Source: Scatophagus argus (taxonomy: Eukaryota > Chordata > Actinopteri > Scatophagidae). Taken from it: a DNA stretch of 64,000 bases. Position 1 is the stretch's first letter. Each line of letters begins with the position of its first letter. The notes beneath the pieces were generated by a model. The model was not told the DNA's origin. It ran no database searches and saw nothing but the letters and a program-made list of their open reading frames with translations. A program made the position numbers and the translations under genes. The stretch lies in contig NC_058504.1 of assembly GCF_020382885.2 (NCBI RefSeq), forward strand, positions 6,438,519 to 6,502,518, in the 5' to 3' direction. Below are positions 15,649 to 55,589 of the stretch, one piece after another.

Positions 15649-17322
15649 ATGTTCTTCATATTTTATTTACTGCTGACACTCAGGGTGGGAAGTAAGTGCA
15701 TGAAATCAAATTCTTTCCATATACATTTCAAGTATATTGTCATCGTATCAGTTTAATACAAGATATGTATGAATATACTGCATCTCTGTTGTTTGTCACT
15801 GATGTATTTAATGTTATGTTTAGGATGCACAGATGATGTGATCGTTGACGTGAAGACTGTTGGTGTTGGAGATGATGTGACTCTGACCTGTACCCGCCAG
15901 AAAGCTCACGATACAATAACAGCCTTGTTCTGGATCAGGCTTGTTTCTGGAAGCTTACCTGAATTCTTGGGAGGAACATATACCTTTGATTATGAGGGTA
16001 TTAATCAGACTCCTCGCATCACAGCAAAACAAGGACCTGGAACGTTTCTTCTCCATATTAATGAAACAAAGAGAAGTGATACTGGACTTTACTACTGTGT
16101 AAAAGTTCAGCGACGTGACATGAAATTTTTGAATGGAACATTTCTGAGAATTAAAGGTAAACACCATTTATAACAGCAGTGTACATACATTTTCATATGG
16201 AGGCAGGACTTCAGAGGAAAGTGTTGATGTGTATTTTAAAGTTTTCATCAGGAGAGTAAAGCATGTTTCATTTCATGTTTGTATTTCCCAGGATCAGAAC
16301 CTGATATCACTGCTGTCATTCAGGAGCCTCCATCTGATTCAGTCCATCCAGGAGACTCAGAGCCTCTGAAGTGTTCAGTCCTCTCTGACCCTGAAGACAA
16401 AACATGTCCAGGAGGTCCCAGTCTGTTCTGGTTCAAAGCTGGATCAGATGAATCTCATCCCAGTGTCATTTACACTCATGGAGACTCTGGTGATGGATGT
16501 GACAAGAGTCCTGAGGCTCACGCTCCACAGAAATGTGTCTACAGCTTCTCTAAGAACGTCAGCTCCTCTGATGCTGGGACTTATTACTGTGCTGTGGCCA
16601 CATGTGGGGAGATATTATTTGGAAATGGAACAAAAATGGACACTGAAGGTAACTGCTGAATATTTCGATATCCATGAAGATGTTTGGCAAACCCTGCATT
16701 GTAACATCATGTTAACTTTCATTGTTTGTTCTTCTTCATATTGTTTCAGCCCCTAACACGCAGGAGGACAATACAGTTCTGCTTCTGTTATGTGCTGCTT
16801 TGGCTCTAAGTCTGATTGTTATAACCTTCCTGATTTTTACCATCAAGAAAACATCTTGTGGTTGTTGCAAAGGTAACAGAATTTCAGCCTATAAAACAGC
16901 ATTTTGCAAAAGCTAATGTCAAGATATATACATTAAGCCAAGTCAATTTTAATGATGTTGCCCCATTTCCAATAAATATAATATTGTCTATTTGTGTAAA
17001 ATTAACCTACAGCATCTTTCCCCTAAATCTTTGTTTTTATTTGTTAATAAAGCTCAAACAGCCAGCGGTGACCAGCAAAGTCAGCAGGTAAGGTATAAAG
17101 AAAAGATGACGACTGAATAGTTATTAACATACGTAAATGTCAACATGTGGTATCTCATAACATTTTGTTCATATATTTGCTCAGAGAGACGAGAACTCAT
17201 TGGTTTATTCTGCACCAACCTTCACCAAGAGCAAAGCTGCCAAATCAGGGAAAAGGAAAGTAAAAACAACTGAAGGAGGGATAATCTACTCTGACGTCCG
17301 GACTTTTGGATCTGCCAGTTAA
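15649..17322 (+). CDS. nitr: NITR gene C, type-1 tail with canonical ITIM
   Basis: Complete six-exon NITR of 342 aa: signal 15649-15691, V 15824-16156, I 16292-16648, TM 16750-16872, linker 17053-17087, tail 17185-17322 (1029 bp). Signal MFFIFYLLLTLRVGR. The V domain is one codon longer than in B (KAHDTIT in the CDR1 region) and keeps DTGLYYC and NGTFLRI, with N-glycosylation sequons NQT and NGT. The I domain is nearly identical to the other copies, with SEPLKC in place of SVTLQC. The helix has no charge and is followed by KKTSCGCCK. The tail has IIYSDV, a canonical ITIM. Intron 4 keeps the empty Tc1 target, so C represents the uninterrupted type-1 gene. Expected on the plasma membrane of immune cells as an inhibitory receptor; ligand unknown. 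Confidence 0.9.
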
Positions 17323-21500: not shown

Positions 21501-23267
21501 ATGCTCTCCTTTTATTTACTGCTGACATTCACTTTAGGGCGTAAGTACTAAACGTCAAATTCTTTCCTTATACATTTCAAGTATGTTGTCATCATCTTGC
21601 ATCGGTTCAATACGAGATATGTATGAATGTACCCCGTCTCTGTTGTTCGTCACTGATGTATTTAATGTTATGTTTAGGATGCACAGATGATGTGATCTTT
21701 GACATGAAGACTGTTGGTGTTGGAGATGATGTGACTCTGACCTGTACCCGCCAAGAATCAAAGGATGCAGCAGCCTTGTTTTGGATCAGGGTTGTTTCTG
21801 GAAACTTACCTGAACTCTTGGGAGGAACATTTGCATTTGATTATGAGGATGTTAATGAGGCTCCTCGTATCACAGCAAAACAAGGGCCTGGAACGTTTCT
21901 TCTCCATATTAAAGAAACCAAGAGAAGTGATACTGGACTTTACTACTGCATAAAAGTACACCAAGTTGACATGAAATTTTTGAATGGAACATTTCTGAGA
22001 ATTAAAGGTAAACACCATTTATAACAGCAGTGTACATACATTTTCATATGGAGGCAGGACTTCAGAGGAAAGTGTTGATGTGTATTTTAAAGTTTTCATT
22101 AGGAGAGTAAAGCATGTTTCATTTCATGTTTGTATTTCCCAGGATCAGAACCTGATATCACTGCTGTCATTCAGGAGCCTCCATCTGATTCAGTCCATCC
22201 AGGAGACTCAGTGACTCTGCAGTGTTCAGTCCTCTCTGACCCTGAAGACAAAACATGTCCAGGAGGTCCCAGTGTGTTCTGGTTCAAAGCTGGATCAGAT
22301 GAATCTCATCCCAGTGTCATTTACACTCATGGAGACTCTGGTGATGGATGTGACAAGAGTCCTGAGGCTCACGCTCCACAGAAATGTGTCTACAGCTTCT
22401 CTAAGAACGTCAGCTCCTCTGATGCTGGGACTTATTACTGTGCTGTGGCCACATGTGGGGAGATATTATTTGGAAATGGAACAAAACTGGACACTGAAGG
22501 TAACTGCTGAATATTTCTCCACCATCTGTAAAATCAGATTAGTTGTATGTTTAATTGTAAAACAACCACAATCCATGAAGATAAACTGTGCTTAGTTTTA
22601 TCATTTTAACAGATGATTAAATGTTGATTAATTATGGCTAATTATGCTTTTACTAATTGTTCATTTTCATCAATTGTCCTTTTCGATATTTTTCAGCAGT
22701 CGACATTCAGCTTTCTGAGAAGGTCAATACAATATTGTTTGTGCTCTGTGGTGTTTTGGTTATAAGCCTGATTCCTGTAGCTTTCCTCATTTGTTCCACA
22801 AAGAGTTATGGTAAGAGAACATTACTTATCCTTTGTTCTATGTGGGAACAACTAACTTCACTGGATTCACAGTAGAAATCAACATACAGAACCGTTCATC
22901 TTTAATATAATTAAATTCAATTAGCTAATCTTTTTTTCTTGTCTGTATTTACAGTATGTGTTCTCATACGTTTCTCATTGTTTGGTTAACAGGCACTGTG
23001 ACCACTGCTGGGCAGCAGAATCAGCATTTAAGGATGTTAATGGTAAGATTAACCTTCCACAAGAATGTTTATGATATTTAAACCCATTTATTGAGATTGT
23101 CATCTCACAATACATGCCATGTATTTTCTCAGAGAGTTGAGGACACTTGGGTTTATTCTGCTGTCATCTTCACCACCATGAGAACTGACAGCAGTGGAAC
23201 GAGGGATGCAAACACATCAGAGAGAGAGAGGATCTACGCTGCTGTCAAGGCTTTGGGGTTGGGTTAG
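21501..23267 (+). CDS. nitr: NITR gene D, own TM exon and type-2 tail
   Basis: Complete NITR of 341 aa: signal 21501-21540, V 21678-22007, I 22143-22499, TM 22697-22810, linker 22993-23042, tail 23133-23267 (1026 bp). Signal, V and I are almost the same as gene B. The TM exon is unlike all others: AVDIQLSEKVN stalk, helix TILFVLCGVLVISLIPVAFLI with an internal proline, and CSTKSYG in place of the CGCC cluster. The linker reads GTVTTAGQQNQHL. The tail has WVYSAV and RIYAAV: both tyrosines have V at +3 but W or R at -2, so they are ITIM-like only. D probably shows the uninterrupted form of the type-2 rear end that E, G and I acquired. Similarity to type-1 sequence ends just after the I exon (about 22516). 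Confidence 0.88.
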
Positions 23268-23940
23268 AAGTTCAGTCAACTGCAGCCAAAAATCTCTGTG
23301 TAAAATGAGTTATTACATGCTAAACGCATTTTGCAATTCACAAAAAACTTTTCATGTTGTGTATCTTTTAAGTCAGCATGCCTGCAAGTTATTAAAATCC
23401 AACTGAAATCACATTTAGTCATCCATTCTTGAGATCAGAAATGAATTAAAATTTGAATATATCCTGGCCAGCATCTGAACAAACAGACCTGACATTTTGA
23501 CACAGCTTGTTCAGTTAGTCTCTGTGTAAAATGAGTTATTATAAATAATTTGAACTGGATAAAAGAAACATGAGTATGCTATTTGATGCTGTTTGATCAT
23601 TAAACAAATCTCTCAACTTCATTTGTGACCCACCATCTTACTTTTATATTTTCATTTCTGTGAGTATAATGAAGACTTACACGTATAGCCTAACAATTTT
23701 CATCAAAAATTGCTCCACTCGTATTAAACAGGTCTACTGTGTGCAAAGTGACTTATCATTAACTTGTCTTGACTTGCCTTAACTTGACTTGTCATTTTGT
23801 CTATTATGTCATTTTCAATGCAAAATTGATAAGAACTTGACATTAATCAAGGTAACAATAATTTTGTTATAACAATGAAAATAAAATTTTGGGAAAAGAC
23901 AGAGCAAGAGGCCAGGCTCCAAGCAATCTGAATGAAATGT
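23268..23940 (+). repeat. type-2 3' flank of gene D
   Basis: Noncoding and shared with the flank of E (29588-30440) and in part G and I. ATTAAA at 23391-23396 is a plausible poly(A) signal. No gene seen. Confidence 0.5.
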
Positions 23941-25240
23941 CATCAGTGATCTGCAAGGTAAAATATATTTTCCCTCAATGCAATCTGCTGACTCTGGTTA
24001 AACAAAAAGGATTGTACTCTTTAACAAAAAGTTCTATGTCTGTGGGGATCATTTCCAACGTGTTTAACACTTAAAATAACAGTGACAGACTGTATATTGT
24101 CAGTTTGTCAGGGCCTGTCAGTTCTCCTCCCATATTCCCTTGTGTTCTCTTCTGTTTCACCTTCCTGGACACTGAAAAGTCGACTTGATTTCCTGAGGAG
24201 GCTGAAGTCCTTCAGCGTCTGTGGGAAGCTGCAGCAGAAGTTCTACCACACTGTCTAAGCCAGCGTCCTCTTCTGTGGCAGAGAAGAGGACTCCAAACAA
24301 ACTCAGATCCATAATGAACAATGTCCATCATCCTCTGCACAGAACCTTTAAAAGGCAGAGGAGCACAATCAGCCACAGGCTGCTGTCTCTGTCCTACTCC
24401 ATGGACAGGTTGAGGAGGTCACTTGTCCCTCAGGACATACAGCTCTTCAGCTCCTCCCTGGGAGGACAGCATTAGACTGCGTCACTGAACGGTTTCATAT
24501 TATACATTTCCTTAATCACTTCATCACTTTATCACTCAGAGACCTGACTGCAGGCTTCAACAGGATATGCAGCAAGGGGACAGCGACAACAGGTTTCAGC
24601 AGGCTAATATTACTTGAACAAACTGAAATGTTTTACTTTTCCACGGTTTCCTGGTTAATGTGCTCTTTCAAAGCACGAACTATGTTGTTGTTAGTGTTTT
24701 CAAGTTAAAGCCAAAGACATCAACAACCACCTGCTGGCTCAGCTATGAGCTATAAAATATATTCACATGTACAAATGCCACTTTGTATTTACACCTCAGT
24801 TTGAAGGCCGACCACAACAAAGCTTAAGTTTCCATGCATCATTTCATTTGCGTTTGTCTGTGTATAAAAGCACAAAGCAGGCTAAAGGTACATTAAGAAC
24901 CTCTGCTTTAAACTACTTTTTACATTTCTTACTGTTCTTATGTCCAACTGTTCCACAAAACTTGTTTTGGTTTGTGGTCAACAGTATCTTGACCCTGATG
25001 AAGGCCACAAACCACAACGCGCTGCTCTAAACAATGTTATGGTAGTTTTGGCCCTGTAGATAGACAGGTTGTCTACTGATTTGTCTTCATTCTCATGCAC
25101 CATTCAGATTGGTAAATTGAGGGAAGAAAAGCCTGTTTTGTGTAGTCATTCTGATGCCACAGTTTGTGTTGTTGAACTGGACTGTATTATACTGTGAGGT
25201 GCTCCAGTCCACATGGGTTCCCTCCCTCAGATAAAAATAT
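23941..25240 (+). repeat. NITR upstream block (gene E), left part
   Basis: Copy of the block before C and F, with the CAACAGGATATG module near 24555 and GAGCTATAAAATATATTCAC near 24746. Interrupted at about 25240 by a LINE. Confidence 0.55.
24165..24473 (+). mobile_element. CR1/Rex1-type LINE C-terminal fragment
   Basis: Plus-strand pieces SRLDFLRRLKSFSVCGKL and then LRSIMNNVHHPLHRTFKRQ resemble the C-terminus of CR1/Rex1 LINE proteins. Longer than the copy before gene C; same location as the copy before gene F. Confidence 0.6.
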
Positions 25241-26845
25241 GACTGAGTGGAGCCAGAGGGACAGCTGACAGCTGAAGACGACCAGCGCTGGGCAAGTGAA
25301 TTAAACCTGTTTTTCAACAGATTTATATCCAACCCCACCCTCTCTGCCACCTTTCCTCTCCCATCTTCACACATCTCCAGGCCAGCAGACACTACCACCA
25401 TCACCCAATCATCACCATCTTCACCTTCACTCGCCTGTATTCACAACACTTCATACCAGCCCACTCCACCACCATCAGACCCCCTATCCCCCACTGTCCA
25501 TCCCTTTCCCCTCCTCACCCCCTCCTCTCACCCCTCTCCTTAACATTGGACCACATGAGGAGAGAACTGAGGCGGCTGAAGAACAGAAAAGCTGCAGGAT
25601 CAGCACCAGACTGCTGAGGGACTGTGCTGACCAGCTCTGTGAGGTGGAACCAAACCACTACAGGCCTGTCGCCTTGACCTCCCACCTGATGAAGACCATG
25701 GAGAGGCTCATCCTCAGCCACCTTCGCTCTGTGGTGAGCACAACGATGGACACGCTGCAGTTTGCCTACAGGCCAAACTCAGGGTGGATGACACTGTCAT
25801 CTACCTGCTGCACCGGGCGCTGACTCACCTGGAGAGTGCTGGGAGCGCTGCGAGAATCATGTTTTTTGACTTCTCAAGCGCATTCAACACAATTCAGCCG
25901 GTGCTGCTGAGACGGAAGCTGGAGAGAGCAGGAGTGGACGGACATTTGGCATCGACTACCTCACCAACAGGCCACAGTATGTGAGACTGCGTAACTGTGT
26001 GTCTGAGGTGGTGGTCTGCAGCACCGGGGCCCCCCAGGGAACAGTACTCTTACCTTTCCTCTTCACCCTCTACACCTTAGACTTCACCTACAACACCAGC
26101 GGATGTCACCTCCAGAAGTTCTCCAACGACTCAGCCATTGTTGGCTGTGTGTCTGAGGGGAATGAGACAGAGTACAGGTCAGGCATCGTGGACTTTGTGG
26201 ACTGGTGTGAGTGCAACTGCCTGTGCTTAATCACCAGTAAAACAAAGGAGATGGTGATTAGGACATTACCACACACACTGGTGAACATCCAGGGCTCAGA
26301 CATTGAGATGGTGAACAGTTTTAAGTATCTGAATGTTTACCTCAACCATAAACTGCACTGGTGACATAACACCGATGCCCTGTACAAGAAGGGCCAAAGT
26401 CGCCTCCACCTTCTGAGGAGACTGAGGTCCTTTGGACATTTTATGACTCTGTGGTAGCCTCTGCTATTGATTATGTTGTGGTCTGTTGGGGAACAACACC
26501 TCTCACCCTCTGCATCAGACAGTGGAGGCTCTGAGCAGCTCCTTCAGCAGCAGACTGCTACACCCTCAGAGCAGGAAGGAGCTACTGCAGGTCCTTCATT
26601 CCCACTGCTGTTAGACTGTAAAACTCAACAGTCTTGTCCTCATTCCCTCCCTCATGCAGACTTGTATATAGCTATATATTGTACAGTGCTTATTCGAAAA
26701 CTGTTAGTTTAGAAACTCTTTATATGTTTTGAAACTGTTTTGCACACTTTATGCTTCTGGCACTCTTTTCTGTTCTTGGGACCTGTCACGAGAAGTGAAT
26801 TTCCCTGCTGTGGGATCAATAAAGTTCATCTTATCTTAACTCTTA
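25241..26845 (+). mobile_element. Rex1-type LINE, 5'-truncated and inactive
   Basis: About 1.6 kb lying inside the gene E upstream block; blocks C, F and I lack it. Reverse transcriptase pieces: MKTMERLILSHLRS region, DDTVIYLLHRALTHLE (25785-), FFDFSSAFNTIQPVLLRRKL (25862-), VCSTGAPQGTVLLPFLFTLY (about 26012-26070), and LQKFSNDSAIVGC, in which the usual FSDD catalytic box reads FSND. The C-terminal frame continues as SKTKEMVI ... FKYLNVYLNHKLHW. Ends with GGGATCAATAAAGTTCATC and an ATCTTATCTTA tail. Short frame breaks and the changed catalytic Asp make it inactive. Confidence 0.8.
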
Positions 26846-27200
26846 TAGAAACTCTCAAAGCCTCCAGCTGAACAGCTCCTGAACACCTCCTGTTCCTCTG
26901 ACACTGTGAGCATCACTTTGCTGCTACCTTTTGCCCTCAGCAGAGAAGTAAAGCAGTGGTTTAACAGCCCAACTCAACTCTGTGTGCTGTGCTCTTCCTG
27001 TTGATGTGACTAACCTCAGAGTGGGCGGGTCATCAGTGATGATGTGGAGCGTCTGGATTGGCTGCCTCACAAACTATTTAAGATGGCTAATCTGACTTGG
27101 TGCATCACTTTGGTAAATGAATGGATGCATATTTTTTAAATACACAAGAAAGAAACAAATCACTTCATATTTAGATGATTGCTACAGACATTGGATCATT
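26846..27200 (+). repeat. NITR upstream block (gene E), right part
   Basis: Continues the block interrupted by the LINE, with GGGCGGG, inverted CCAAT and CTATTTAAG at about 27023-27082. Confidence 0.5.
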
Positions 27201-27539
27201 TGTGACTTTCTACAATATATTATCAGTTACTGGGTTTATTCTGCAGTTTATAATACAGTAGTTACTCTATTATTGTGTGTTTTGCTGTAACCCTTTGATT
27301 ACTGTGATTCTACACTAATGACAACAGAAAAATAAATATTATATTCCATTTCTATTCCTAAATCCTCCAGAATCCAACTCACTGGACCTTTAACACATGA
27401 CCTCCACAAGGTAAAATTACATCATTTAGAATGAGATTTGTGTGTCCTACACAGTTTAACCACATGAGTGAGTGTCGTCTGAAAGGTTCATCAAAATATT
27501 TTTACAATACGAGAGAAAACGAACAAAATATTTTTGGAT

Positions 27540-27819
27540 TACTCTGGTAATTCATCAAATCAACCCATCTCTTATGTTAACTCTCACTGTCAGTTATAGA
27601 AACCCACCAACAAACATCAAACAAAAACGTGCTGTTGTTTCATGCCTTTCGGTCGGAAAGATGGGTGATATTATTTCCACTGTGGTAGTACAGTGACAGG
27701 CCATCATAACAACAGGCCAATCAGATTGTTGTGATATTGTTCCCTCCCACTTGATATCATCACTATAAGATGAAGCGTCTTCTAATATCATCTAATTTAA
27801 CGGCTGTCACGGCCAGAAG
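27540..27819 (+). promoter_or_regulatory. proximal promoter of gene E
   Basis: TGTGGT at 27681-27686, CCAAT at 27717-27721 and TATAAGA at 27764-27770. The CCAAT-to-ATG distance is 103 bp. Confidence 0.6.
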
Positions 27820-29587
27820 ATGTTCTTCATATTTTATTTGCTGCTGACACTCAGGGTGGGAAGTAAGTGAATGAAATCAAATTCTTTCCATATACATTTC
27901 AAGTATGTTGTCATCGTCTTGTATCAGTTTAATACAAGATATGTATGAATGTACTGCATCTCTGTTGTTCGTCACTGATGTATTTAATGTTATGTTTAGG
28001 ATGCACAGATGATGTGATCATTGAGATGAAGACTGTTGGTGTTGGAGATGATGTGACTCTGACCTGTACCCGCCAGAAAGCTCAAGATGGAACAACAGCC
28101 TTGTTTTGGATCAGGGTTGTTTCTGGAAACTTACCTGAATTCTTGGGGGCAACATATGCCTTTGATTATAAGGGTATTAATCAGACTCCTCGCATCACAG
28201 CAAAACAAGGACCTGGAACGTTTCTTCTCCATATTAAAGAAACAAAGCGAAGTGATACTGGAGTTTACTACTGTGTAAAAGTATACCTACGTGACATGAA
28301 ATTTTTGAATGCAACATTTCTGAGAATTAAAGGTAAACACCATTTATAACAGCAGTGTACATACATTTTCATATGGAGGCAGGACTTCAGATTAAAGTGT
28401 TGATGTGTATTTTAAAGTTTTCATTAGGAGAGTAAAGCATGTTTCATTTCGTGTTTGTATTTCCCAGGATCAGAACCTGATATCACTGCTGTCATTCAGG
28501 AGCCTCCATCTGATTCAGTCCATCCAGGAGACTCAGTGCCTCTGAAGTGTTCAGTCCTCTCTGACCCTGAAGACAAAACATGTCCAGGAGGTCCCAGTCT
28601 GTTCTGGTTCAAAGCTGGATCAGATGAATCTCATCCCAGTGTCATTTACACTCATGGAGACTCTGGTGATGGATGTGACAAGAGTCCTGAGGCTCACGCT
28701 CCACAGAAATGTGTCTACAGCTTCTCTAAGAGCGTCAGCTCCTCTGATGCTGGGACTTATTACTGTGCTGTGGCCACATGTGGGGAGATATTATTTGGAA
28801 ATGGAACAAAAATGGACATTCAAGGTAACTGCTGAACATTTCAATATCCATGAAGATGTTCGGCAAACCCTGCATTGTAACATCATGTTAACTTTCATTG
28901 TTTGTTCTTCATATTGTTTCAGCCCCTAACATGCAGGAGGACAATACAGTTCTGCTTCTGTTATGTGCTGCTTTGGCTCCAAGTCTGATTGTTATAACCT
29001 TCCTGATTTTTACCATCAACAAAAATTCTTGTGGTTGTTGCAAAGGTAACAGAATTTCAGCCTATAAAACAGCATTTTGTCAAAGCTAACATCAAGATAT
29101 ATACAGTGCATCTGGAAAGTATTCACACCGCTTTGCTTTTTCCACATTTTATTATGTTACAGTCTCATTACAAAATGAATTAAATTCATTTATTTCCTCA
29201 AAATTCTACACAAAATTCCCCATAATGACTTCAATTCAATCAGCTAATCATTATTTATTTTTCTTGTCTGTATTTATGTGTTCTCATACGTTTCTCATTG
29301 TTTGGTTAACAGACACTGTGACCACTGCTGGGCAGAAAAATCAGCATTTAAGGATGTTAATGGTAAGATTAACCTTCCACAAGAATGTTTATGATATTTA
29401 AACCCATTTATTGAGATTGTCATCTCACATTACATGCCATATATTTTCTCAGAGAGTTGAGGACACTTGGGTTTATTCTGCTGTCGTCTTCACCACCATG
29501 AGAACTGACAGCAGTGGAACGAGGGATGCAAACTCATCAGAGAGAGAGAGGATCTACGCTGCTGTCAAGGCTTTGGGGTTGGATTAG
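27820..29587 (+). CDS. nitr: NITR gene E, type-1 head joined to type-2 tail across a Tc1 scar
   Basis: Complete NITR of 346 aa: signal 27820-27862, V 28000-28332, I 28468-28824, TM 28923-29045, linker 29313-29362, tail 29453-29587 (1041 bp). The V domain reads [10 protein letters not shown] ... DTGVYYC ... NATFLRI. The I domain is standard except KSVSSSD in place of KNVSSSD, which removes an NVS glycosylation sequon. The TM exon is type 1, but the helix reads CAALAPSLIVITF with a proline where the others have leucine. INKNSCGCC follows, then a type-2 linker and tail (WVYSAV, RIYAAV). Intron 4 contains 126 bp of a Tc1 left end exactly at the type-1/type-2 join. Still a full open frame with intact splice sites, so probably functional; whether its signalling is inhibitory is less certain than for type 1. 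Confidence 0.88.
29104..29229 (+). mobile_element. Tc1-like left-end scar in intron 4 of gene E
   Basis: Begins CAGTGCATCTGGAAAG after TA at the same target site as the full element in gene B and stops after CCCATAATGAC. It is followed at once by TTCAATTCAATCAGC, which is gene D-type intron sequence. Confidence 0.85.
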
Positions 29588-30440
29588 AAGTTCAGTCAAC
29601 TGCAGCCAAAAATCTCTGTGTAAAATGAGTTATTACATGCTAAACGCATTCTGCAATTCACAAAAAACTTTTCATGTTGTGTATCTTTTAAGTCAGCATG
29701 CCTGCAAATTATTAAAATCCAACTGAAATCACATTTAGTCATCCATTCTTGAGATCAGAAATGAATTAAAATTTAAATATATCCTGGCCAGCATCTGAAC
29801 AAACAGACCTGACATTTTGACACACCTTGTTCAGTTAGTCTCTGTGTAAAATGAGTTATTATAAATCATTTGAACTGGATAAAAGAAACATTTCTTCCAT
29901 TTTTCAAATGGACATGAGTATGCTATTTGATGCTGTTTGATCATTAAACAAATCTCTCAACTTCATTTGTGACCCACCATCTTACTTTTATATTTTCATT
30001 TCTGTGAGTATAATGAAGACTTACACGTATAGCCTAACAATTTTCATCAAAAATTGCTCCACCCGTATTAAACAGGCCTACTGTGTGCAGTTTTGGCATC
30101 GTATGTTGTGTATGTTTTATGTCAACATTTCTGCATGCTATTAAAATTTGAATGAAAACACATTTAGTCATCGCTCATTCAAAAATGTTAGTAGGCGACA
30201 ACACTGTGTTTGAATAAATGTAAATAGGTGTGACACAACACGTGTCCTAAAAAAGTGACTTATCATTAACTTGTCTTGACTTGCCTTAACTTGACTTGTC
30301 ATTTTGTCTATTATGTCATTTTCAATGCAAAATTGATAAGAACTTGACATTAATCAAGGTAACAAGAATTTTGTTATAACAATGAAAATAAAATTTTGGG
30401 AAAAGAGAGAGAGCAAGAGGCCAGGCTCCAAGCAATCTGA
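29588..30440 (+). repeat. type-2 3' flank of gene E
   Basis: Matches 23268-23940 downstream of D, with an extra stretch near 30080-30255 absent from the D copy. No gene seen. Confidence 0.5.
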
Positions 30441-32030
30441 ATGAAATGTCATCAGTGATCTGCAAGGTAAAATATATTTTCCCTCAATGCAATCTGCTGA
30501 CTCTGGTTAAACAAAAAGGATTGTACTCTTTAACAAAAAGTTCGATATCTGTTGGGATCATTTCCAGAGTGTTTAACACTTAAAATAACAGTGACAGACT
30601 GTATATTGTCAGTTTGTCAGGGCCTGTCAGTTCTCCTCTCATATTCCCTTGTGTTCTTTTCTGTTTCACCTTCCTGGACACTGAAAAGTCGACTTGATTT
30701 CCTGAGGAGGCTGAAGTCCTTCAGCGTCTGTGGGAAGCTGCTGCAGAAGTTCTACCACACTGTCTAAGCCAGCGTCCTCTTCTGTGGCAGAGAAGAGGAC
30801 TCCAAACAAACTCAGATCCATAATGAACAATGTCCATCATCCTCTGCACAGAACCTTAAATAGGCAGAGGAGCACAATCAGCCACAGGCTGCTGTCTCTG
30901 TCCTACTCCATGGACAGGTTGAGGAGGTCACTTGTCCCTCAGGACATACAGCTCTTCAGCTCCTCCCTGGGAGGACAGCATTAGACTGCGTCACTGAACG
31001 GTTTCACATTATACATTTCCTTAATCACTTCATCACTTTATCACTCAGAGACCTGACTGCAGGCTTCAACAGGATATGCAGCAAGGGGACAGCGACAACA
31101 GGTTTCAGCAGGCTAATATTACTTGAACAAACTGAAATGTTTTACTTTTCCACGGTTTCCTGGTTAATGTGCTCTTTCAAAGCAGGAACTATGTTGTTGT
31201 TAGTGTTTTTAAGTTAAAGCCAAAGACATCAACAACCACCTGCTGGCTCAGCTATGAGCTATAAAATATATTCACATGTACAAATGCCACTTTGTATTTA
31301 CACCTCAGTTTGAAGGCCAACCACAACAAAGCTTAAGTTTCCATGCATCATTTCGTTTGCGTTTGTCTGTGTATAAAAGCACAAAGCAGGCTAAAGGTGC
31401 ATTAAGAACTTCTGCTTTAAACTACATTTTACATTTGTTACTGTTCTTATGTCCACAAAACTTGTTTTGGTTTATGGTCAACAGTATCTTGACCCTGATG
31501 AAGGCCACAAACCACAACATGCTGCTCTAAACAATGTTATGGTAGTTTTGGCCCTGTAGATAGACAGGTTGTCTACTGATTTGTCTTCATTCTCATGCAC
31601 CATTCAGATTGGAAAAGTGAGGGAAGAAAACTCTGTTTTGTGTAGTCATTCTGATGCCACAGTTTGTGTTGTTGAACTGGACTGCATTATACTGTGAGGT
31701 GCTCCAGTCCACATGGGTTCCCTCCCTCAGATAAAAATATATAGTTCAGACACTCTAAAAGCCTCCAGCTGAACAGCTCCTGAACAGCTCCTGTTCCTCT
31801 GACACTGTGAGCATCACTTTGCTGCTACCTTTTGCCCTCAGCAGAGAAGTAAAGCAGTGGTTTAACAGCCCAACTCAACTCTGTGTGCTGTGCTCTTCCT
31901 GTTGATGTGACTAACCTCAGAGTGGGCGGGTCATCAGTGATGATGTGGAGCGTCTGGATTGGCTGCCTCACAAACTATTTAAGATGACTTGGTGCATCAC
32001 TTTAGTAAATGAATGGATGCATATTTTTCA
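30441..32030 (+). repeat. NITR upstream block (gene F)
   Basis: Uninterrupted copy of the block: CAACAGGATATG module near 31065, TATAAAATATATTCAC near 31260, GGGCGGG / inverted CCAAT / CTATTTAAG at about 31923-31982. It shows what the E copy looked like before the Rex1-type insertion. Confidence 0.55.
30673..30983 (+). mobile_element. CR1/Rex1-type LINE C-terminal fragment
   Basis: Third copy of the fragment before C and E: SRLDFLRRLKSFSVCGKLLQ, then LRSIMNNVHHPLHRTLNRQ in another frame. Confidence 0.6.
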
Positions 32031-32429
32031 AATACACAAAAATCAAACAAATCACTTCATATTTAGATGATTGCTACAGACATTGGATCATTTGTGACTT
32101 TCTACAATGTATTGTCAGTTACTGGGTTTATTCTGCAGTTTTTTTTACAGTAGTTACTCTATTACTGTGCATCTTACTGTAACCCTTTGATTACTGTGAT
32201 TCTACACTAACGACAACAGAATAATAAATATTCTATTCCATTTCTATTCCTAAATCCTCCAGAATCCAACTCACTGGACCTTTAACACATGACCTCCACA
32301 AGGTAAAATGACATCATTTAGGATGAGATTTGTGTGTCCTACACAGTTTAACCACATGAATGAGTGTCGTCTGAAAGGTCCATCAAAATATTTTTGCAAT
32401 ATGAGAGAAAATGAGCAAAATATTTTTGG

Positions 32430-32711
32430 ATTACATTTGTAGTTCATCAGATCAAATCATCTTTTGTGTTTACTCTCACTGTCAGTTATAGAAACCCACC
32501 AACAAACATCAAACAAAAACGTGCTGTTGTTTCATGCCTTTCTGTCGGAAAGATGGGTGATATTATTTCCACTGTGGTAGTACAGTGACAGGCCATCATA
32601 ACGAGAGGCCAATCAGATTGTTGTGAAGTTGTTCCCTCCCACTTGATATCATCACTATAAGATGAAGCGTTTTCTAATATCATCTAATTTAACGGCTGTC
32701 ACGGCCAGAAG
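32430..32711 (+). promoter_or_regulatory. proximal promoter of gene F
   Basis: TGTGGT at 32573-32578 and CCAAT at 32609-32613, 103 bp before the ATG, with a TATAAGA element between CCAAT and ATG. Confidence 0.6.
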
Positions 32712-34415
32712 ATGTTCTTCATATTTTATTTACTGCTGACACTCAGGGTGGGAAGTAAGTGCATGAAATCAAATTCTTTCCATATACATTTCAAGTATGT
32801 TGTCATCGTCTTGTATCAGTTTAATACAAGTGATGTATGAATGTACTGCATCTCTGTTGTTCGTCACTGATGTATTTAATGTTATGTTTAGGATGCACAG
32901 ATGATGTGATCATTGAGATGAAGACTGTTGGTGTTGGAGATGATGTGACTCTGACCTGTACCCGCCAGAAAGCTCAAGATGTAACAACAGCCTTGTTTTG
33001 GATCAGGGTTGTTTCTGGAAACTTACCTGAATTCTTGGGAGGAACATTTGCATTTGATTATGAGGTTATCAACGAGACTCCTCGTATCACAGCAAAACAA
33101 GGGCCTGGAACGTTTCTTCTCCATATTCATGAAACAAAGAGAAGTGATACTGGACTTTACTACTGTGTAAAAGTAGAACAACGTGACATGAAATTTTTGA
33201 ATGGAACATTTCTGAGAATTAAAGGTAAACACCATTTATAACAGCAGTGTACATACATTTTCATATGGAGGCAGGACTTCAGATTAAAGTATTGATGTGT
33301 ATTTTAAAGTTTTCATGAGGAGAGTAAAGCATGTTTCATTTCATGTTTGTATTTCCCAGGATCAGAACCTGATATCACTGCTGTCATTCAGGAGCCTCCA
33401 TCTGATTCAGTCCATCCAGGAGACTCAGTGACTCTGAAGTGTTCAGTCCTCTCTGACCCTGAAGACAAAACATGTCCGGGAGGTCCCAGTGTGTTCTGGT
33501 TCAAAGCTGGATCAGATGAATCTCATCCCAGTGTCATTTACACTCATGGAGACTCTGGTGATGGATGTGACAAGAGTCCTGAGGCTCACGCTCCACAGAA
33601 ATGTGTCTACAGCTTCTCTAAGAACGTCAGCTCCTCTGATGATTACTGTGCTGTGGCCACATGTGGGGAGATATTATTTGGAAATGGAACAAAACTGGAC
33701 ATTGAAGGTAACTGCTGAATATTTCCATAAAAAACAATAAATATTAATTCTACATCTGATAGAATCAATAAAGATGTTCAGCAAACCCTGCATTGTAACA
33801 TCATGTTAACTTTCATTGTTTGTTCTTCTTCATATTGTTTCAGCCCCTAACATGCAGGAGGACAATACAGTTCTGCTTCTGTTATGTGCTGCTTTGGCTC
33901 TAAGTCTGATTGTTATAACCTGCCTGATTTTTACCATCAACAAAAATTCTTGTGGTTGTTGCAAAGGTAACAGAATTTCAGCCTATAAAACAGCATTTTG
34001 CAAAAACTAATGTCAAGATATATACATTAAGCCAAGTCGATTTTAATGATGTCACCCCATTTCCAATAAATATAATATTGTCTATTTGTGTAAATTAACC
34101 TACAGCTTCTTTCCCCTGAAATCTTTGTTTTTATTTGTTAATAAAGCTCAAACAGCCAGCGGTGACCAGCAATGTCAGCAGGTAAGGTATAAAGAAAAGA
34201 TGACACTGAATAGTTATTAACATACGTAAATGTTAACATGTGGTATCTCATAACATTCTTTTCATATATTTGCTCAGAGAGACGAGAACTCATTGGTTTA
34301 TTCTGCACCAACCTTCACCAAGAGCAAAGCTGCCAAATCAGGGAAAAGGAATGTAAAAACAACTGAAGGAGGGATAATCTACTCTGACGTCAGGACTTTT
34401 GGATCTGCCATTTAA
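32712..34415 (+). CDS. nitr: NITR gene F, type-1 tail, 3-codon deletion in I domain
   Basis: Complete NITR of 339 aa: signal 32712-32754, V 32892-33224, I 33360-33707, TM 33844-33966, linker 34147-34181, tail 34278-34415 (1020 bp). The I exon is 348 bp rather than 357: near 33640 SSDDYCAVATC replaces [14 protein letters not shown]. The Asp-x-Gly-x-Tyr-x-Cys motif just before the second core cysteine is therefore lost, although the frame and all six cysteines remain. The V domain is normal (DTGLYYC, NGTFLRI; NET sequon). The helix has no charge, then INKNSCGCC. The linker reads AQTASGDQQCQQ with an additional Cys. The tail has IIYSDV, a canonical ITIM. Intron 4 has the empty Tc1 site, and intron 3 has a short insertion near 33725-33770. 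The I domain may fold poorly; the gene may be a recent functional loss or a length variant. Confidence 0.87.
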
Positions 34416-37409: not shown

Positions 37410-39181
37410 ATGTTTTTCACATTTTATTTGCTGCTGACACTCACTTTAGGACGTAAGTACATGAAATCAAATTCTTTCCACAAACATTTCAAGTATTTGA
37501 TCATCGTCTTGTATCAGTTTAACATGACATATGTACGAATGGATTGCATCTCTGTTGTTTCTTTACTGATGTATTTAATGTTATGTTTAGGATGCACAGA
37601 TGATGTGATCGTTGAGATGAAGACTGTTGGTGTTGGAGATGATGTGACTCTGACCTGTACCCGCCAGAAAGCTCAAGATGGAACAACAGCCTTGTTTTGG
37701 ATCAGGGTTGTTTCTGGAAACTTACCTGAATTCTTGGGGGCAACATATACCTTTGATTATAAGGGTATTAATCAGACTCCTCGCATCACAGCAAAACAAG
37801 GACCTGGAACGTTTCTTCTCCATATTAAAGAAACAAAGCGAAGTGATACTGGACTTTACTACTGTGTAAAAGTATACCTACGTGACATGAAATTTCTGAA
37901 TGCAACATTTCTAATAATTAAAGGTAAACACCATTTATAACAGCAGTGTACATACATTTTCATATGGAGGCAGGACTTCAGAGGAAAGTGTTGATGTGTA
38001 TTTTAAAGTTTTCATTAGGAGAGTAAAGCATGTTTCATTTCATGTTTGTATTTCCCAGGATCAGAACCTGATATCACTGCTGTCATTCAGGAGCCTCCAT
38101 CTGATTCAGTCCATCCAGGAGACTCAGTGACTCTGCAGTGTTCAGTCCTCTCTGACCCTGAAGACAAAACATGTCCAGGAGGTCCCAGTGTGTTCTGGTT
38201 CAAAGCTGGATCAGATGAATCTCATCCCAGTGTCATTTACACTCATGGAGACTCTGGTGATGGATGTGACAAGAGTCCTGAGGCTCACGCTCCACAGAAA
38301 TGTGTCTACAGCTTCTCTAAGAACGTCAGCTCCTCTGATGCTGGGACTTATTACTGTGCTGTGGCCACATGTGGGGAGATATTATTTGGAAATGGAACAA
38401 AACTGGACACTGAAGGTAACTGCTGAATATTTCAATATCCATGAAGATGTTTGGCAAACCCTGCATTGTAACATCATGTTAACTTTCATTGTTTGTTCTT
38501 CTTCATATTGTTTCAGCCCCTAACATGCAGGAGGACAATACAGTTCTGCTTCTGTTATGTGCTGCTTTGGCTCTAAGTCTGATTGTTATAACCTGCCTGA
38601 TTTTTACCATCAACAAAAATTCTTGTGGTTGTTGCAAAGGTAACAGAATTTCAGCCTATAAAACAGCATTTTGTCAAAGCTAACATCAAGATATATACAG
38701 TGCATCTGGAAAGTATTCACACCGCTTTGCTTTTTCCACATTTTATTATGTTACAGTCTCATTACAAAATGAATTAAATTCATTTATTTCCTCAAAATTC
38801 TACACAAAATTCCCCATAATGACTTCAATTCAATCAGCTAATCAATATTTATTTTTCTTGTCTGTATTTATGTGTTCTCATACGTTTCTCATTGTTTGGT
38901 TAACAGACACTGTGACCACTGCTGGGCAGAAAAATCAGCATTTAAGGATGTTAATGGTAAGATTAACCTTCCACAAGAATGTTTATGATATTTAAAGCCA
39001 TTTATTGAGATTGTCATCTCACAATACATGCCATATATTTTCTCAGAGAGTTGAGGACACTTGGGTTTATTCTGCTGTCGTCTTCACCACCATGAGAACT
39101 GACAGCAGTGGAACGAGGGACGCAAACTCATCAGAGAGAGAGAGGATCTACGCTGCTGTCAAGGCTTTTGGGTTGGATTAG
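37410..39181 (+). CDS. nitr: NITR gene G, type-1 head joined to type-2 tail across a Tc1 scar
   Basis: Complete NITR of 346 aa: signal 37410-37452, V 37591-37923, I 38059-38415, TM 38517-38639, linker 38907-38956, tail 39047-39181 (1041 bp). The signal MFFTFYLLLTLTLGR mixes features of the B/D (LTLGR) and C/E/F (MFF) signals. The V domain is closest to E (NATFL, here followed by IIKG). The I domain is standard. The TM exon is type 1 with INKNSCGCC. The type-2 tail ends AVKAFGLD and holds WVYSAV and RIYAAV. Intron 4 keeps the same 126 bp Tc1 scar and the same join as gene E, so E and G share that event. All splice sites are intact. Confidence 0.88.
38698..38823 (+). mobile_element. Tc1-like left-end scar in intron 4 of gene G
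   Basis: Same start, end and join as the scar in gene E (29104-29229). Confidence 0.85.
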
Positions 39182-40561
39182 AAGTTCAGTCAATCACAGC
39201 CAAAAATCTCTGTGTAAAATGAGTTATTACATGCTAAACGCATTCTGCAATTAACAAAAAACTTTTCATGTTGTGTATCTTTTAAGCCTGCAAGTTATTA
39301 AAGTCCAACTGAAATCACATTTAGTCATCCATTCTTGAGATCAGAAATGAATTAAAATTTAAATATATCCTGGCCAGCATCTGAACAAACAGACCTGACA
39401 TTTTGACACACCTTGTTCAGTTAGTCCTGTTTTCTTGTTCTCTGCTGTGTACTGTGCTTCCTGTTTTATTTTGTCAGTCTCCTCTCCGCTGCACTCCTAC
39501 TTCCTGTTCTGTTGATTGCTCTTCCAGCCCTAATTAGTTCCACCTGCGTCTTGCTCTCTCAGTGTATTTAAGCCATGTCTTGTCTTCCCTTGTTATCAGT
39601 TAGTTTTTCTTTTTCCTCTTGTGTTATTTGTTCCAGCATAATTTCATTGACCTGTAGATTTCATTGAGACCTCTTTGTTATGTTGTTCACTTGAGTCCAA
39701 CTCTCTATGGTCTACCAGTTTTAACACATCTGCCAGCATGTTTATATGCTGTTTCCTGTGCTGCCGCTGAGCAGCTACTTCATAGTCTTCCCTCTGCCCC
39801 TCAAACTGCCTTTAGTGGAGAAATCTTTTCAAACAACGGTTTGTTTGGTCCTTCAATCAACACGTGATGGTGCAGAACAAGAAGTTTGTTCATGCATAAG
39901 ATGCAGCTTTTAGCAGGAAAGCGAATGTGGGCTGATGTTTACAGTCTGTGGCTCTTGTGTAGCAAGCAGCCGTCTTGCTCACAGCAGGAGTTTCAACTTG
40001 ACTACTTTTGAACTGCATGAGGAAACTGGTTCAAGCACCAGCACAACAAGCAAATTTCACACAAAGTGGACTTGAGTCTGGGTTCAAAGATACTGCCTTG
40101 ACTTTCTTTAAAGTGCAAGTAGTAAAATCTGGACATCTTAATAGGTTTTGGGAATATTTTCCTCCTGGTATTGCTGATGTTGTTTCATATTCCATCACTG
40201 CAAATCTCTCACAGAGGGTGAAATTGTCTTACAACGTATTTATTTATTTGTCTACAATACTGGCCTCATGGAGATGTTAATGGACAAGTGGTACACATTT
40301 GATTTTTGTTAAAGCCTTGACATTATAACCATGGGAACTGAATCTACTAGTTGAACTCTTTTTCATTTCTAATGTGCCAGCTGGTTTGCATGGAAGTGAA
40401 ACGCACATTGTTCTACATGGTCATTTAGTTGTACTGTATGTTCACAGGAAAAGATTTTAATCAGGCTAAAGAAGCTTTGTGCAGACAGTCAGGCAAAGTC
40501 AAGATGGCAGTTCAGACTTCTGCTTTTGCCACATGTTTCCGGGTGGGACTGGTGAATATAA

Positions 40562-40592
<31 letters not shown>

Positions 40593-41235
40593 AGACACAC
40601 ACGCCTTTAGCATCTACCAATGAAAAGTCACTAAACCACAAAGTAGTGCAGTGAAAACAGTTGTGACATACCATGACTGAACAGGCCCAACCTCCCTCTG
40701 CACACTTTAACTACTGTCAAGAGTTTCTGTGGTGCTTAATCATGACAATAAAATGGTTTTACAGCAGTGATCAGGTTCCTGAGACTAACACAGAGAGCAA
40801 GAGGGGCAGGGGAAGACCCCGTTGAATGTGTTATGCTGTTATGCCTGGCCTCAACAATGCAGCTTTCCTTGTATTAGTTGACTGAAGTGTTTCAGGTGTA
40901 TCTTTTGTTAAAAACAGCATTTTCTGGTTATTTCTTTTCTGTCGATCATTGTGTGTATTGAATTGTGTGCATGTGTTCAAAAAGAAGTGGAGACAACATT
41001 TTGAGTTATTGATTTAACGGTACGTTAATATATTACCATGCACATGTTCCTGTCCCTTTTATTGATGGACAGGTCACCACACATCACTGAGCCAGTGGAC
41101 TTTATTTGCGTTACTAGAACTACATTTCTGTAGCGCCGCAATGTGAGGACTAGACTACAACTACCAAAAAAACAGCATAATGGGTCTTTTAACAAAAGAA
41201 AAGCTCTAAATTTCCCACAGGGGAAAGTGTTTCTG
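39182..41235. other. 3' flank of G and spacer, duplicated downstream of I
   Basis: The first 0.27 kb is type-2 3' flank. The rest is noncoding and recurs nearly unchanged at 52383-54480. A pyrimidine-rich start (39425-39640) with TGTATTTAAGCC looks like an old repeat end but could not be classified. No gene seen. Confidence 0.45.
40562..40602 (+). repeat. (C)17 plus (AC)n microsatellite
   Basis: A run of 17 C followed by AC repeats with one AG interruption. Its duplicate lies at 53776-53828 with a longer AC run. Confidence 0.9.
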
Positions 41236-41239
41236 TTAT

Positions 41240-42305
41240 GGTCCTCCAACAGAGTGCTGCTCTGGAATCAGTTTTGTCTGCACATCATTTAATAACTTTT
41301 GATTTTATTTTAGCCAATTGCACAAAACCCAGCAGAAGCACTCTCACTAGATGTCTGTCTGATAATGCCATAGCCAAATTTAAGGAAGCAGTTCCTTCGA
41401 TTCTTAGTACAATACCCAGATTCAGTGTGTCAGGGGACTCATGCACCCCTAGTTGCCATGACATTGATAACTTTGTACGCTCAACCTAATTGTGCCTCTA
41501 TCAAAAAATAATATAACTAGAAGAAGCTCTGCTCCATGGTACACCCAGGAAACACGCGAGTTATAGCAAAGATCACGACACATAGAGAAGAAATGGCGTT
41601 CAACAAAAAAAGTTGAATTCTATCAGGCCTGGCAAGATGGTCTAAAAACATACAGGGCAGCACTCCGTACAGCCAGAGCCAGTTATTACTCATCACTCAT
41701 AGAAGACAATAAGAGCAGCCCCAGGTTTTTATTCAGCACTGTAGCCAGGCTGACGCAGAGTCATAACTCTATTGAGTAATCCATTCCTCCACATCTCAGT
41801 AGCAGTCATTTCATGAACTTCTTCAATGAAAATTTGTAACCATTAGAGATAACATTCAAGACCCCCTAGCATCACCTAGCATCACCTATCACTTAGAGAT
41901 AACCACTAACTCAGATACGTACCTGGACTCATGTCTTCCTATCAACCCTCAACAATTGGCTTCTATCATTTCCTCCTCTAAGATCTCTTAGATCCAAGTC
42001 CTACCGGGTTACTTAAGGAAGTGTTCCCTTTACTTGGCACCTCCTTACTAGACATTATTAATTTGTCCCTGACACCAAGCTATGTCCCACAGTCTTTTAA
42101 AGTTGCTGTAATCAAACCCCTGTTAAAAAAAGAGCCCACTCTTGATCCAACTATAGGCCTATCTCCAACCTGGTCGTCATTTCAAAAAATTTGGAGAAAG
42201 TTGTCGCCAGTCAGGTGTGCAAGTATCTCCATAATAACAGCCTATTTGAAGTCTTTCAGTCAGGTTTTAGGGAACATCACAGCACAGAGACTGCACTGAA
42301 TTGAA
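41240..42305 (+). mobile_element. L2-type LINE fragment
   Basis: Plus-strand pieces in several frames: SRSTLTRCLSDNAIAKFKEA (41331-), VFPLLGTSLLDIINLSLTPSYVPQSFKVAVIKPLLKK (start about 42019), then a stretch corresponding to the region leading to the RT palm. These match fish L2 (Maui-like) LINE proteins. 5' and 3' parts are missing and the frame is broken; inactive. The copy at 54490-55406 is its duplicate. Confidence 0.7.
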
Positions 42306-42839
42306 TTGAATTGCTCTCTGAGTGCCTTCCACCTAATGCATGTTGTTATGTTGGCATGGGCCCCTGCCCAACTGAACAGCAGTGAAGCAGCAGAACGTAC
42401 GATGGATATAAGTATTTCTGAGGTGTTCTTCCTGCTCATGTGTTTCACTACAGATGAGTGAAAGGCAGAGTGGGCTGATTAAGAGGGGTAGCTTGTCCTG
42501 GTCCTGTCCTCTGGCTAACTCTGTGGGTTATTGTGATGAATGGCTGTGTAGATGTTTTAGCTATGCAAGCAGCAACAACTATGAAATATCTCAGTTGTAT
42601 GGATTGTCATGACATTTTGCACAAACGTTCATAAACTTTAAGGACAAATTCTAATTGGTTTGGTGATCCACTGACTTCATCTCTGAGCCAGCAGAATGCT
42701 GGTCTGTCAAACTTCTCAACCATTTTAGGGTGGATTTCAACTTGAATTGTAATGAATGGTGATCCTCCAAAAAACCAAAAACATTTATTTAAAAAAAAAA
42801 TCTTTCACCACCATAAAAAAAAGTACACCACAAACAATA
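42306..42839. other. spacer before gene H
   Basis: The stretch 42306-42635 is absent from the duplicate before gene J, where the L2 piece joins directly to sequence matching 42636 onward. No gene seen. Confidence 0.45.
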
Positions 42840-43079
42840 TAAATTAACCCACCATGAGAACCAAACACCACCATGAGATGACAAAAGCGTGCTGTTGATG
42901 CTGTTTCATGTCTGAAAGTTGGAAAGTTTTGGTTGATATATTTCCACTGTGGTAGTACAGTGAAACACCAACGTAAGGACGGGCCAATCAGATTGTTCTT
43001 GAATTGTATCCTCCCATTTGATATGCTCACATAAAGGTGAATCGTCTTAATATACACAGCAAATTAACAGCATTCTCTC
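42840..43079 (+). promoter_or_regulatory. proximal promoter of gene H
   Basis: TGTGGT at 42948-42953 and CCAAT (GGGCCAATCAGA) at 42984-42988. The element order is conserved, but the distance to the preferred ATG (43098) is 114 bp. Confidence 0.55.
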
Positions 43080-44819
43080 ATGTGGAAAGAGCAGAAAATG
43101 TCTTATATCTTATTTTACATACTGCTGATGCTCAGAGTGGGACGTAAGTACATGTACAAGGTCAGAAGTACTAAGGAGGCATACAAATGTTTTTCTGCTG
43201 TTACTCACTGTTCTGTGTTTCTTTTATGTTTCAGGATGCGCAGCCCAGCAAAACTTTGTAAGAAAGACTGTTGCTGTTGGACAAAATGTGACTCTAACAT
43301 GTGCCCGTCAGTCATCTGAGAATGTTTGGACCCTTTTTTGGATCAAGCTCGTTGCTGGAAAGTTGCCTGAAATCTTGGGGAAAGCTTTTAGCTTTGATCA
43401 TGATGATGGTGTGAAAGGAATTTCTCGCATTTTTTCCAAACAAGAGCCCGATAGATTTGATCTCCACATTACAAAAGCAATGTTGAGCGATACTGCATTT
43501 TACTACTGTTTGAAAGTCAAGCGTCTTAACATCACTTTTGTGAAAGGAGCATTTCTGAATATCAAAGGTAACTATAGGAAAAACACTGGCCTACAAATTC
43601 CTTAAAATTATTCTGAGCAATTTAATGTGAAACCATACACAGCCACGGTATTATAGAACAGCATTTATGTGTTGGATATGAATAGATTTAAACATGATGC
43701 TGTGATGATGTGTTTTTATGGATTAAACTGCCTGTACTGAACTTTTAATTGTCATGAAAGTAAACATGTATGTTTTACATTTTCCCAGGATCAGAACCTG
43801 ATATCACTGCTGTCATTCAGGAGCCTCCATCTGATTCAGTCCATCCAGGAGACTCAGTGACTCTGCAGTGTTCAGTCCTCTCTGACCCTGAAGACAAAAC
43901 ATGTCCAGGAGGTCCCAGTCTGTTCTGGTTCAAAGCTGGATCAGATGAATCTCATCCCAGTGTCATTTACACTCATGGAGACTCTGGTGATGGATGTGAC
44001 AAGAGTCCTGAGGCTCACGCTCCACAGAAATGTGTCTACAGCTTCTCTAAGAACGTCAGCTCCTCTGATGCTGGGACTTATTACTGTGCTGTGGCCACAT
44101 GTGGGGAGATATTATTTGGAAATGGAACAAAAATGGACATTCAAGGTAACTGCTGAATATTTCAATATCCATGAAGATGTTTGGCAAACCCTGCATTGTA
44201 ACATCATGTTAACTTTCATTGTTTGTTCTTCTTCATATTGTTTCAGCCCCTAACACGCAGGAGGACAATACAGTTCTGCTTCTGTTATGTGCTGCTTTGG
44301 CTCTAAGTCTGATTGTTATAACCTGCCTGATTTTTACCATCAAGAAAAATTCTTGTGGTTGTTGCAAAGGTAACAGAATTTCAGCCTATAAAACAGCATT
44401 TTGCAAAAGCAAATGTCAAGATATATACATTAAGCCAAGTCAATTTTAATGATGTTGCCCCATTTCCAATAAATATAATATTGTCTATTGGTGTAAAATT
44501 AACCTACAGCTTTTTTCCCCTAAATCTTTGTTTTTATTTTTTAATAAAGCTCAAACAGCCTGTGGTGACCAGCAATGTCAGCAGGTAAGGTATAAAGAAA
44601 AGATGATGACTGAATAGTTATTAACATACGTAAATGTCAACATGTGGTATCTCATAACATTTTGTTCATATATTTGCTCAGAGAGACGAGAACTCATTGG
44701 TTTATTCTGCACCAACCTTCACCAAGAGCAAAGCTGCTAAATCAGGGAAAAGGAATGTAAAAACAACTGAAGGAGGGATAATCTACTCTGACGTCCGGAC
44801 TTTTGGATCTGCCAGTTAA
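43080..44819 (+). CDS. nitr: NITR gene H, divergent V domain on a type-1 rear end
   Basis: Complete NITR, 343 aa from ATG 43098 or 349 aa from ATG 43080. The inner start is preferred because MSYILFYILLMLRVGR aligns with the other signals. Exons: signal to 43143, V 43235-43567, I 43789-44145, TM 44247-44369, linker 44550-44584, tail 44682-44819. The V domain (CAAQQNFVRKTVAVGQNV) is strongly diverged from B-G; the usual DTGxYYC reads DTAFYYC, with G changed to A, and it ends GAFLNIKG. The I exon and everything after it are nearly identical to C and F, including IIYSDV (canonical ITIM) and KKNSCGCC. The join lies just before the I exon (about 43783). The linker reads AQTACGDQQCQQ with two extra cysteines. 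Probably an inhibitory receptor made by replacement of the rear end of a J-like gene. Confidence 0.87.
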
Positions 44820-53788: not shown

Positions 53789-53833
<45 letters not shown>

Positions 53834-54485: not shown

Positions 54486-54489
54486 CAGA

Positions 54490-55406: not shown

Positions 55407-55589
55407 TTTAAGGACAAATTCTAATTGGTTTGGTGATCCACTGACTTCATCTCTGAGCCAGCAGAATGCTGGTCTGTCAAACTTCTCAACCATTTTAGGA
55501 TGGATTTCAGCTTGAATTGTAATGAATGGTGATCCTCCAATAAACCAAGAACATTTATTTAAATAAAAAAATCTTACACCACCATAAAA

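Follow-up and report, generated by a model that had tools for sequence, protein, structure and literature searches.

The stretch of Scatophagus argus DNA analysed here (the window, 64,000 nucleotides) lies on contig C12 of a genome comprising 570.7 Mb in 48 contigs and carries a series of receptor genes, lettered A to J after the initial annotation; K and L lie directly beyond it. Ten full gene models were built (B to I, K, and L). J was left out because its exon 5 was missed by the search pattern, and A as well as further genes upstream and downstream lack a model. The genes consist of leader, V, I, transmembrane (TM), and two tail exons, which corresponds to the L-V-I-TM-C1-C2 plan of the novel immune-type receptors (NITRs). 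All ten full models are open and join their exons in phases 1, 1, 1, 1, and 0, with introns 1 to 4 in phase 1 throughout. The predicted protein of gene E matches Pfam V-set (5.4e-19) and Ig_3/Ig_2, six cysteines were counted in its I domain, and the motif FGNGTK(L/M), a J-like FGXG end, closes the I domain in 11 of 11 models (B to L).

A genome search with the I-domain protein returned 42 matches, 16 on C12 and 26 on C23. The latter form a second NITR cluster at C23:4099025-4240818, where 24 of the 26 matches are each contained in one open frame of 240-273 aa, as would be expected if a single exon encoded V and I. The available text of PMC2442602, from which we took the defining NITR features (six-cysteine I domain, FGXG, exon plan), likewise describes two gene organisations in medaka, in which V and I occupy separate exons or a single one. 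We named the genes NITRs because of their Ig domains, the six cysteines, the FGNGTK(L/M) motif, and this two-organisation pattern between C12 and C23; judged from these sequence features, the window is part of a teleost NITR cluster. In a PDB comparison, the best 60 of 3575 matches were antibody-type chains, with no NITR among these 60. Between the genes, open frames at 11769-12894 and 60535-62352 resemble retroelement reverse transcriptase, as judged by eye from their translations.

The transmembrane and tail exons of five genes, which define a type-1 and a type-2 tail, are positioned as follows.

8394-8516, + strand: gene B transmembrane exon, type 1 (model, comparison)
10099-10133, + strand: gene B exon 5, type-1 tail (model)
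10220-10357, + strand: gene B exon 6, type-1 tail with LVYSAP and IIYSDV (model)
22697-22810, + strand: gene D transmembrane exon, own type (model)
22993-23042, + strand: gene D exon 5, type-2 tail (model)
23133-23267, + strand: gene D exon 6, type-2 tail with WVYSAV and RIYAAV (model)
28923-29045, + strand: gene E transmembrane exon, type 1 (model, comparison)
29313-29362, + strand: gene E exon 5, type-2 tail (model)
29453-29587, + strand: gene E exon 6, type-2 tail, stop at its end (model)
38517-38639, + strand: gene G transmembrane exon, type 1 (model)
38907-39181, + strand: gene G exons 5 (38907-38956) and 6 (39047-39181), type-2 tail (model)
51562-51684, + strand: gene I transmembrane exon, type 1 (model)
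52111-52382, + strand: gene I exons 5 (52111-52160) and 6 (52248-52382), type-2 tail (model)

Following the definitions in the available text of PMC2442602, the type-1 tail contains one ITIM (IIYSDV) and one ITIM-like motif (LVYSAP), and the type-2 tail two ITIM-like motifs (WVYSAV, RIYAAV). Searching the genome with gene D from intron 4 through the tail gave six matches, all six of which were scored. Four are the genes D, E, G, and I; the other two are weaker, cover just the region of the last exon, and fall in gene A and in a gene upstream of the window. This agrees with the initial annotation, which had assigned D-type intron and type-2 tail exons to E, G, and I.

The same annotation had described a whole Tc1-like element in intron 4 of gene B, followed by a type-1 tail, and an empty site in C, F, and H. 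These features were located at the following positions.

8575-9973, + strand: Tc1-like element in gene B intron 4 (TA at 8573-8574 and 9974-9975; DDE_3 match)
16929-16930, + strand: empty TA site in gene C intron 4 (sequence comparison)
34023-34024, + strand: empty TA site in gene F intron 4 (sequence comparison)
44426-44427, + strand: empty TA site in gene H intron 4 (sequence comparison)

The element in gene B was thus confirmed as a complete TA-flanked insertion ahead of the type-1 tail. It measures 1399 nt and, together with the extra TA, makes up 1401 of the 1582 nt (89%) of intron 4 (8517-10098). Its inverted arms (8570-8670 and 9878-9978) are 88% alike, and a DDE_3 match (3.8e-9) on a 66-aa piece points to the remnant of a DDE-class transposase. 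The family is multicopy, with at least 179 genomic matches when 40 of 536 candidates were scored; within the same scored set, several relatives align in two blocks separated by about 185 extra nt near query position 805, and the gene B copy therefore appears to be internally deleted. TA target, inverted ends, DDE_3 remnant, and many genomic copies are all as in Tc1-like elements. The insertion duplicated its TA, and the joined flanks read as the uninterrupted site of gene C. BLAST of the element against 114 kb gave matches only in B (whole) and in E, G, and I (left end).

The uninterrupted site occurs together with type-1 tails in C, F, and H in the window and in K and L beyond it. B, E, G, and I share the exact sequence CAAAGCTAACATCAAG upstream of the site, as had been reported. 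The variant AAAAGCTAATGTCAAG, previously given for C, F, and H alike, is exact only in C and is one base off in each of F and H; K has one B-type base just upstream of the site and L departs further from AAAAGCTAATGTCAAG. The empty site itself is thus upheld, and the upstream variant holds as a difference between groups. Differing flanks had been named as a sign of separate Tc1 insertions, but in the 58 aligned nt that reach to just beyond the TA, no base differs among E, G, and I, and B deviates by one base. Since intron 4 of gene C offers 21 TA sites in 180 nt and the carriers share orientation and flank variant, independent insertions in B, E, G, and I at the very same TA are unlikely and were rejected; a single insertion is far likelier.

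E, G, and I retain only part of the element. The remnants and their junctions are listed below.

29104-29229, + strand: gene E Tc1 left-end remnant, 126 nt (alignment, BLAST)
29230-29312, + strand: gene E D-type part of intron 4 (alignment)
38698-38823, + strand: gene G Tc1 left-end remnant, 126 nt, identical to that of E (alignment, BLAST)
51743-52007, + strand: gene I longer Tc1 left-end remnant, 265 nt, corresponding to nt 1-274 of the B element (alignment, BLAST)
51869-52027, + strand: 159 bp present in I and missing from E and G, comprising Tc1 and 20 nt of D-type intron (alignment)
52006-52007, + strand: GA common to both sides of the gene I junction between Tc1 and D-type intron (alignment)
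22811-22992, + strand: gene D intron 4, no Tc1; homologous to the right-hand portion of intron 4 in I from 22891 and in E and G from 22911

Unlike an intact Tc1-like element, these remnants keep part of one end and travel as passengers in an intron whose splice ends are intact. Their position at the same TA had been predicted correctly; the difference between their right-hand junctions is new. In gene I, the sequence after 52007 continues as D-type intron 4 from ACCGTTCATC (D position 22891), with a 2-nt overlap. In E and G, which are 99% identical over the 665 nt from the TM exon to the stop, the D-type intron begins 20 nt further in (D position 22911). The E/G junction is therefore nested in the I junction, with less Tc1 and less D-type intron. 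No Tc1 sequence was found in or near intron 4 of gene D by BLAST of the element over 114 kb. Because this intron is only 84% identical to that of E where alignable, and E, G, and I agree in a form of the D-type intron whose indels are missing from D, the present-day gene D was not the direct donor.

The remnants themselves are less uniform. Of the 126 sites compared between I and E, 8 are different, though the adjacent 58 aligned nt are identical. Comparison with 12 other genomic copies revealed no derived base uniting I with E and G at the ten variable sites; at two sites I and E/G agree against B, and there B is the odd one out. We also considered an origin of the E/G remnant from the right arm of the element, and rejected it because the bases private to E and G do not occur in that arm.

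Separate trees for head and tail exons, proposed earlier as a check, disagree in their placement of E, G, and I. The TM tree was calculated from intron 3 through the TM exon to the TA; its bootstrap had not settled and D forms a long branch. It separates B, C, E, F, G, H, I, K, and L from D and J (100/98), recovers B+E+G+I weakly (55/85), and rejects D+E+G+I (AU p 0.016). The tail tree unites D+E+G+I (100/99.9) and rejects B+E+G+I (AU p 2.8e-40). The TM of E, G, and I thus groups with type-1 genes and their tail with D, and the two trees conflict; the agreement of head and tail that the initial annotation had named as refuting its reading did not appear. Within the tail, E+G+I is absent from the best tree but not rejected (AU p 0.30); for the choice between one and two fusions the tail was polarised with gene A as outgroup, which aligns poorly in the intron. 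The V-exon tree rejects D+E+G+I (1e-64) and, at the borderline, E+G+I (AU p 0.047), and the heads of E/G and of I are not sisters. It pairs E with G (99/93), H with J (100/100), and, more weakly, B with D (85/73).

The 3' flanks were compared on the same strand in pieces of 100 nt or more. Those of D (23269-27560), E (29589-32460), G (39183-42850), and I (52384-55620) fall into the sets D/E and G/I, which resemble each other for about 250 nt only. The first 0.5 kb past the gene E stop is D-like (94%), and the flanks of D and E match across most of the 2.9 kb of E. Past about 0.85 kb, however, the E flank is also common to the type-1 genes B and K, so that only the proximal part is type-2-specific and the distal match does not identify the D lineage. 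G and I have another flank in common, extending over 3.2-3.7 kb. Comparison on the same strand did not recover, downstream of E, G, or I, the flank that directly follows the type-1 stops of B, C, and F.

We consider it probable that these structures go back to one transposon insertion, one illegitimate join within it, and a later deletion. As site and flank show, a Tc1-like element inserted a single time, at one TA within the fourth intron of a type-1 NITR gene. One descendant, gene B, kept both the element and the type-1 tail; in another, the DNA would have broken about 274 nt inside the element, and the broken end would have been joined, with a 2-nt overlap, to a D-like intron 4 about 100 nt upstream of the tail exons. 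The simplest route to such a join would be a deletion between neighbouring head-to-tail genes or an unequal exchange. The product would couple the ectodomain and transmembrane segment of type 1 to the tail of type 2 and, since both introns are in phase 1 with intact ends, the fusion splices normally on paper. The initial annotation had noted that codon phase is kept, and the intron-4 join is indeed in phase 1 in 10 of 10 full models. Gene I would preserve the original junction, E and G would derive from an I-type junction by the later loss of 159 bp across it, and heads and 3' flanks would have been exchanged after the copies had spread. Gene B as the direct ancestor of E, G, and I was rejected: it kept the type-1 tail, and its V exon and 5' flank are closest to those of D.

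The alternative that survives best, although we think it unlikely, is gene conversion, by which a type-2 tail tract was copied into a Tc1-bearing type-1 gene with no fusion by deletion or unequal exchange. Homogenisation is evident elsewhere in the cluster, with 97-100% identity of I exons among 11 genes and V down to 67%. Also in favour of conversion, the D-like sequence of G and I ends about 250 nt past the stop, and the E flank beyond about 0.85 kb is common to the type-1 genes B and K. Yet Tc1 and the D intron have no homology that could have guided the left edge of such a tract, and the proximal stop flank of the B/C/F type, sought on the same strand, does not reappear after E, G, and I.

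Quite unlikely, in our estimate, are two separate joins of a Tc1-bearing type-1 intron to a D-like tail, one leading to I and the other to E and G. The 8 differences in 126 remnant sites, the missing common derived base, and the absence of an E+G+I clade from the best tail tree speak for such a history. On the other hand, E, G, and I possess a single version of the D-type intron with indels absent from D, E+G+I in the tail is not rejected by the AU test, and the E/G junction lies inside that of I on both sides, as a later deletion predicts. The nested junctions thus favour, but do not prove, a single fusion over two.

A more active role of the transposon had been suggested by the initial annotation, according to which the element served as, or lay at, the recombination point. 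The second part of this proposal stands, as the breakpoint is inside Tc1; the first is not supported, given that D has no Tc1 and that the overlap is 2 nt. Tc1-like elements move by cut-and-paste and leave breaks for repair, and a transposase cut of the element could in this way have initiated the fusion. The break, however, is situated about 274 nt inside, away from the element end, and no Tc1 lies in or near D. Moreover, the element fills 89% of intron 4 in gene B, so a random break is expected to fall inside it; a passive target suffices and the scar needs no transposase. Recombination between two Tc1 copies was rejected, since none lies at or close to intron 4 of D and the 114 kb contain the element only in B, E, G, and I. 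A fusion driven by the transposon in either way is highly doubtful, and the absence of Tc1 from D argues for an illegitimate join resembling end-joining rather than recombination between elements. Finally, the high similarity of the tandem genes could invite assembly errors, but an artefact is very improbable, as the fusion occurs in three copies with two junction forms and differing 3' flanks, the 114 kb examined contain no N, and the 10 full models are open in every case.

For the single join followed by deletion, the predicted effect is altered phosphatase docking, since two ITIM-like motifs take the place of a canonical ITIM and an ITIM-like motif. Judged by eye, the hydrophobic part of the TM is uncharged in E, G, and I, which, together with the ITIM or ITIM-like tails, fits the inhibitory NITR class. 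From the predicted proteins, the tail swap probably changes the strength or the partners of inhibition rather than creating an activating receptor.

Tail exchange of this kind has parallels in primate KIRs, which, like the NITRs described here, are head-to-tail clustered Ig receptors with reshuffled binding and signalling parts. In the available text of PMC7516082, the few completely sequenced human fusion KIR genes have their breakpoints in intragenic transposable elements, and the cytoplasmic tail of rhesus KIR3DL20 was exchanged. The phenomenon is therefore known in kind. The S. argus case differs from these accounts in the receptor family and in that one DNA-transposon insertion, absent from D, was apparently cut by an illegitimate join. 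The combination of an NITR setting, a DNA transposon, and a preserved series of stages was not found among the open-access papers searched. The genes also resemble the medaka and zebrafish NITRs of PMC2442602 in their V and I domains, TM exon, two tail exons, ITIM and ITIM-like motifs, and family expansion. The available text of that paper regards concerted evolution as less likely in a primary role, whereas in S. argus genes whose V exons have diverged possess a nearly uniform I exon, and tails were swapped. Empty site, full element, long scar, and short scar together provide a base-resolved series for a tail change in an NK-like receptor of fish, with which related species can be used to test how often and in what order heads and tails were swapped. 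The scarred junctions are a record of how immune receptors can alter the signal they pass to the cell.

The wider cluster is more mosaic than the fusion of two receptor lineages proposed by the initial annotation. The joining of a type-1 head and TM to a type-2 tail is retained from that proposal, but two lineages are too simple, since D has a B-like head, H is a mosaic, and the V exons of E, G, and I form no clade. The head of gene D (V 98.9% identical to B) sits on its own TM and type-2 tail, and the V exons of H and J are 67-70% like those of the other nine genes. D, J, and the F/K pair cease to be homologous to the other genes at nearly the same point, about 18 nt into intron 3, counting the GT. 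The near-invariant I exon next to diverged V exons, together with these breaks, suggests that the I exon acted as a common hinge for exchange or conversion. More tentatively, and with somewhat less than even confidence, the cluster may be modular: the I-exon hinge would reassort V heads onto several TM and tail modules, with D and H as examples, joins in intron 4 like the Tc1-scarred one would swap tails without homology, and selection would keep swapped copies. If this scheme is true, ligand binding and signalling would evolve semi-independently.

Further details of this mosaic are seen in individual genes. The I-domain exons that are 97-100% identical across 11 genes, with V down to 67%, include those at 7936-8292, 43789-44145, and 56622-56978. 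Gene H (42860-44819) has a J-like 5' flank, leader region, and V (96.6-100%) and a type-1 intron 3, TM, and tail. F and K have in common a 5' part of intron 3 (33708-33843 and, in window coordinates, 65205-65340) that is unlike that of the other type-1 genes. The I exon of gene F (33360-33707) is nine nt shorter, with three residues lost before the YC cysteine and the frame open.
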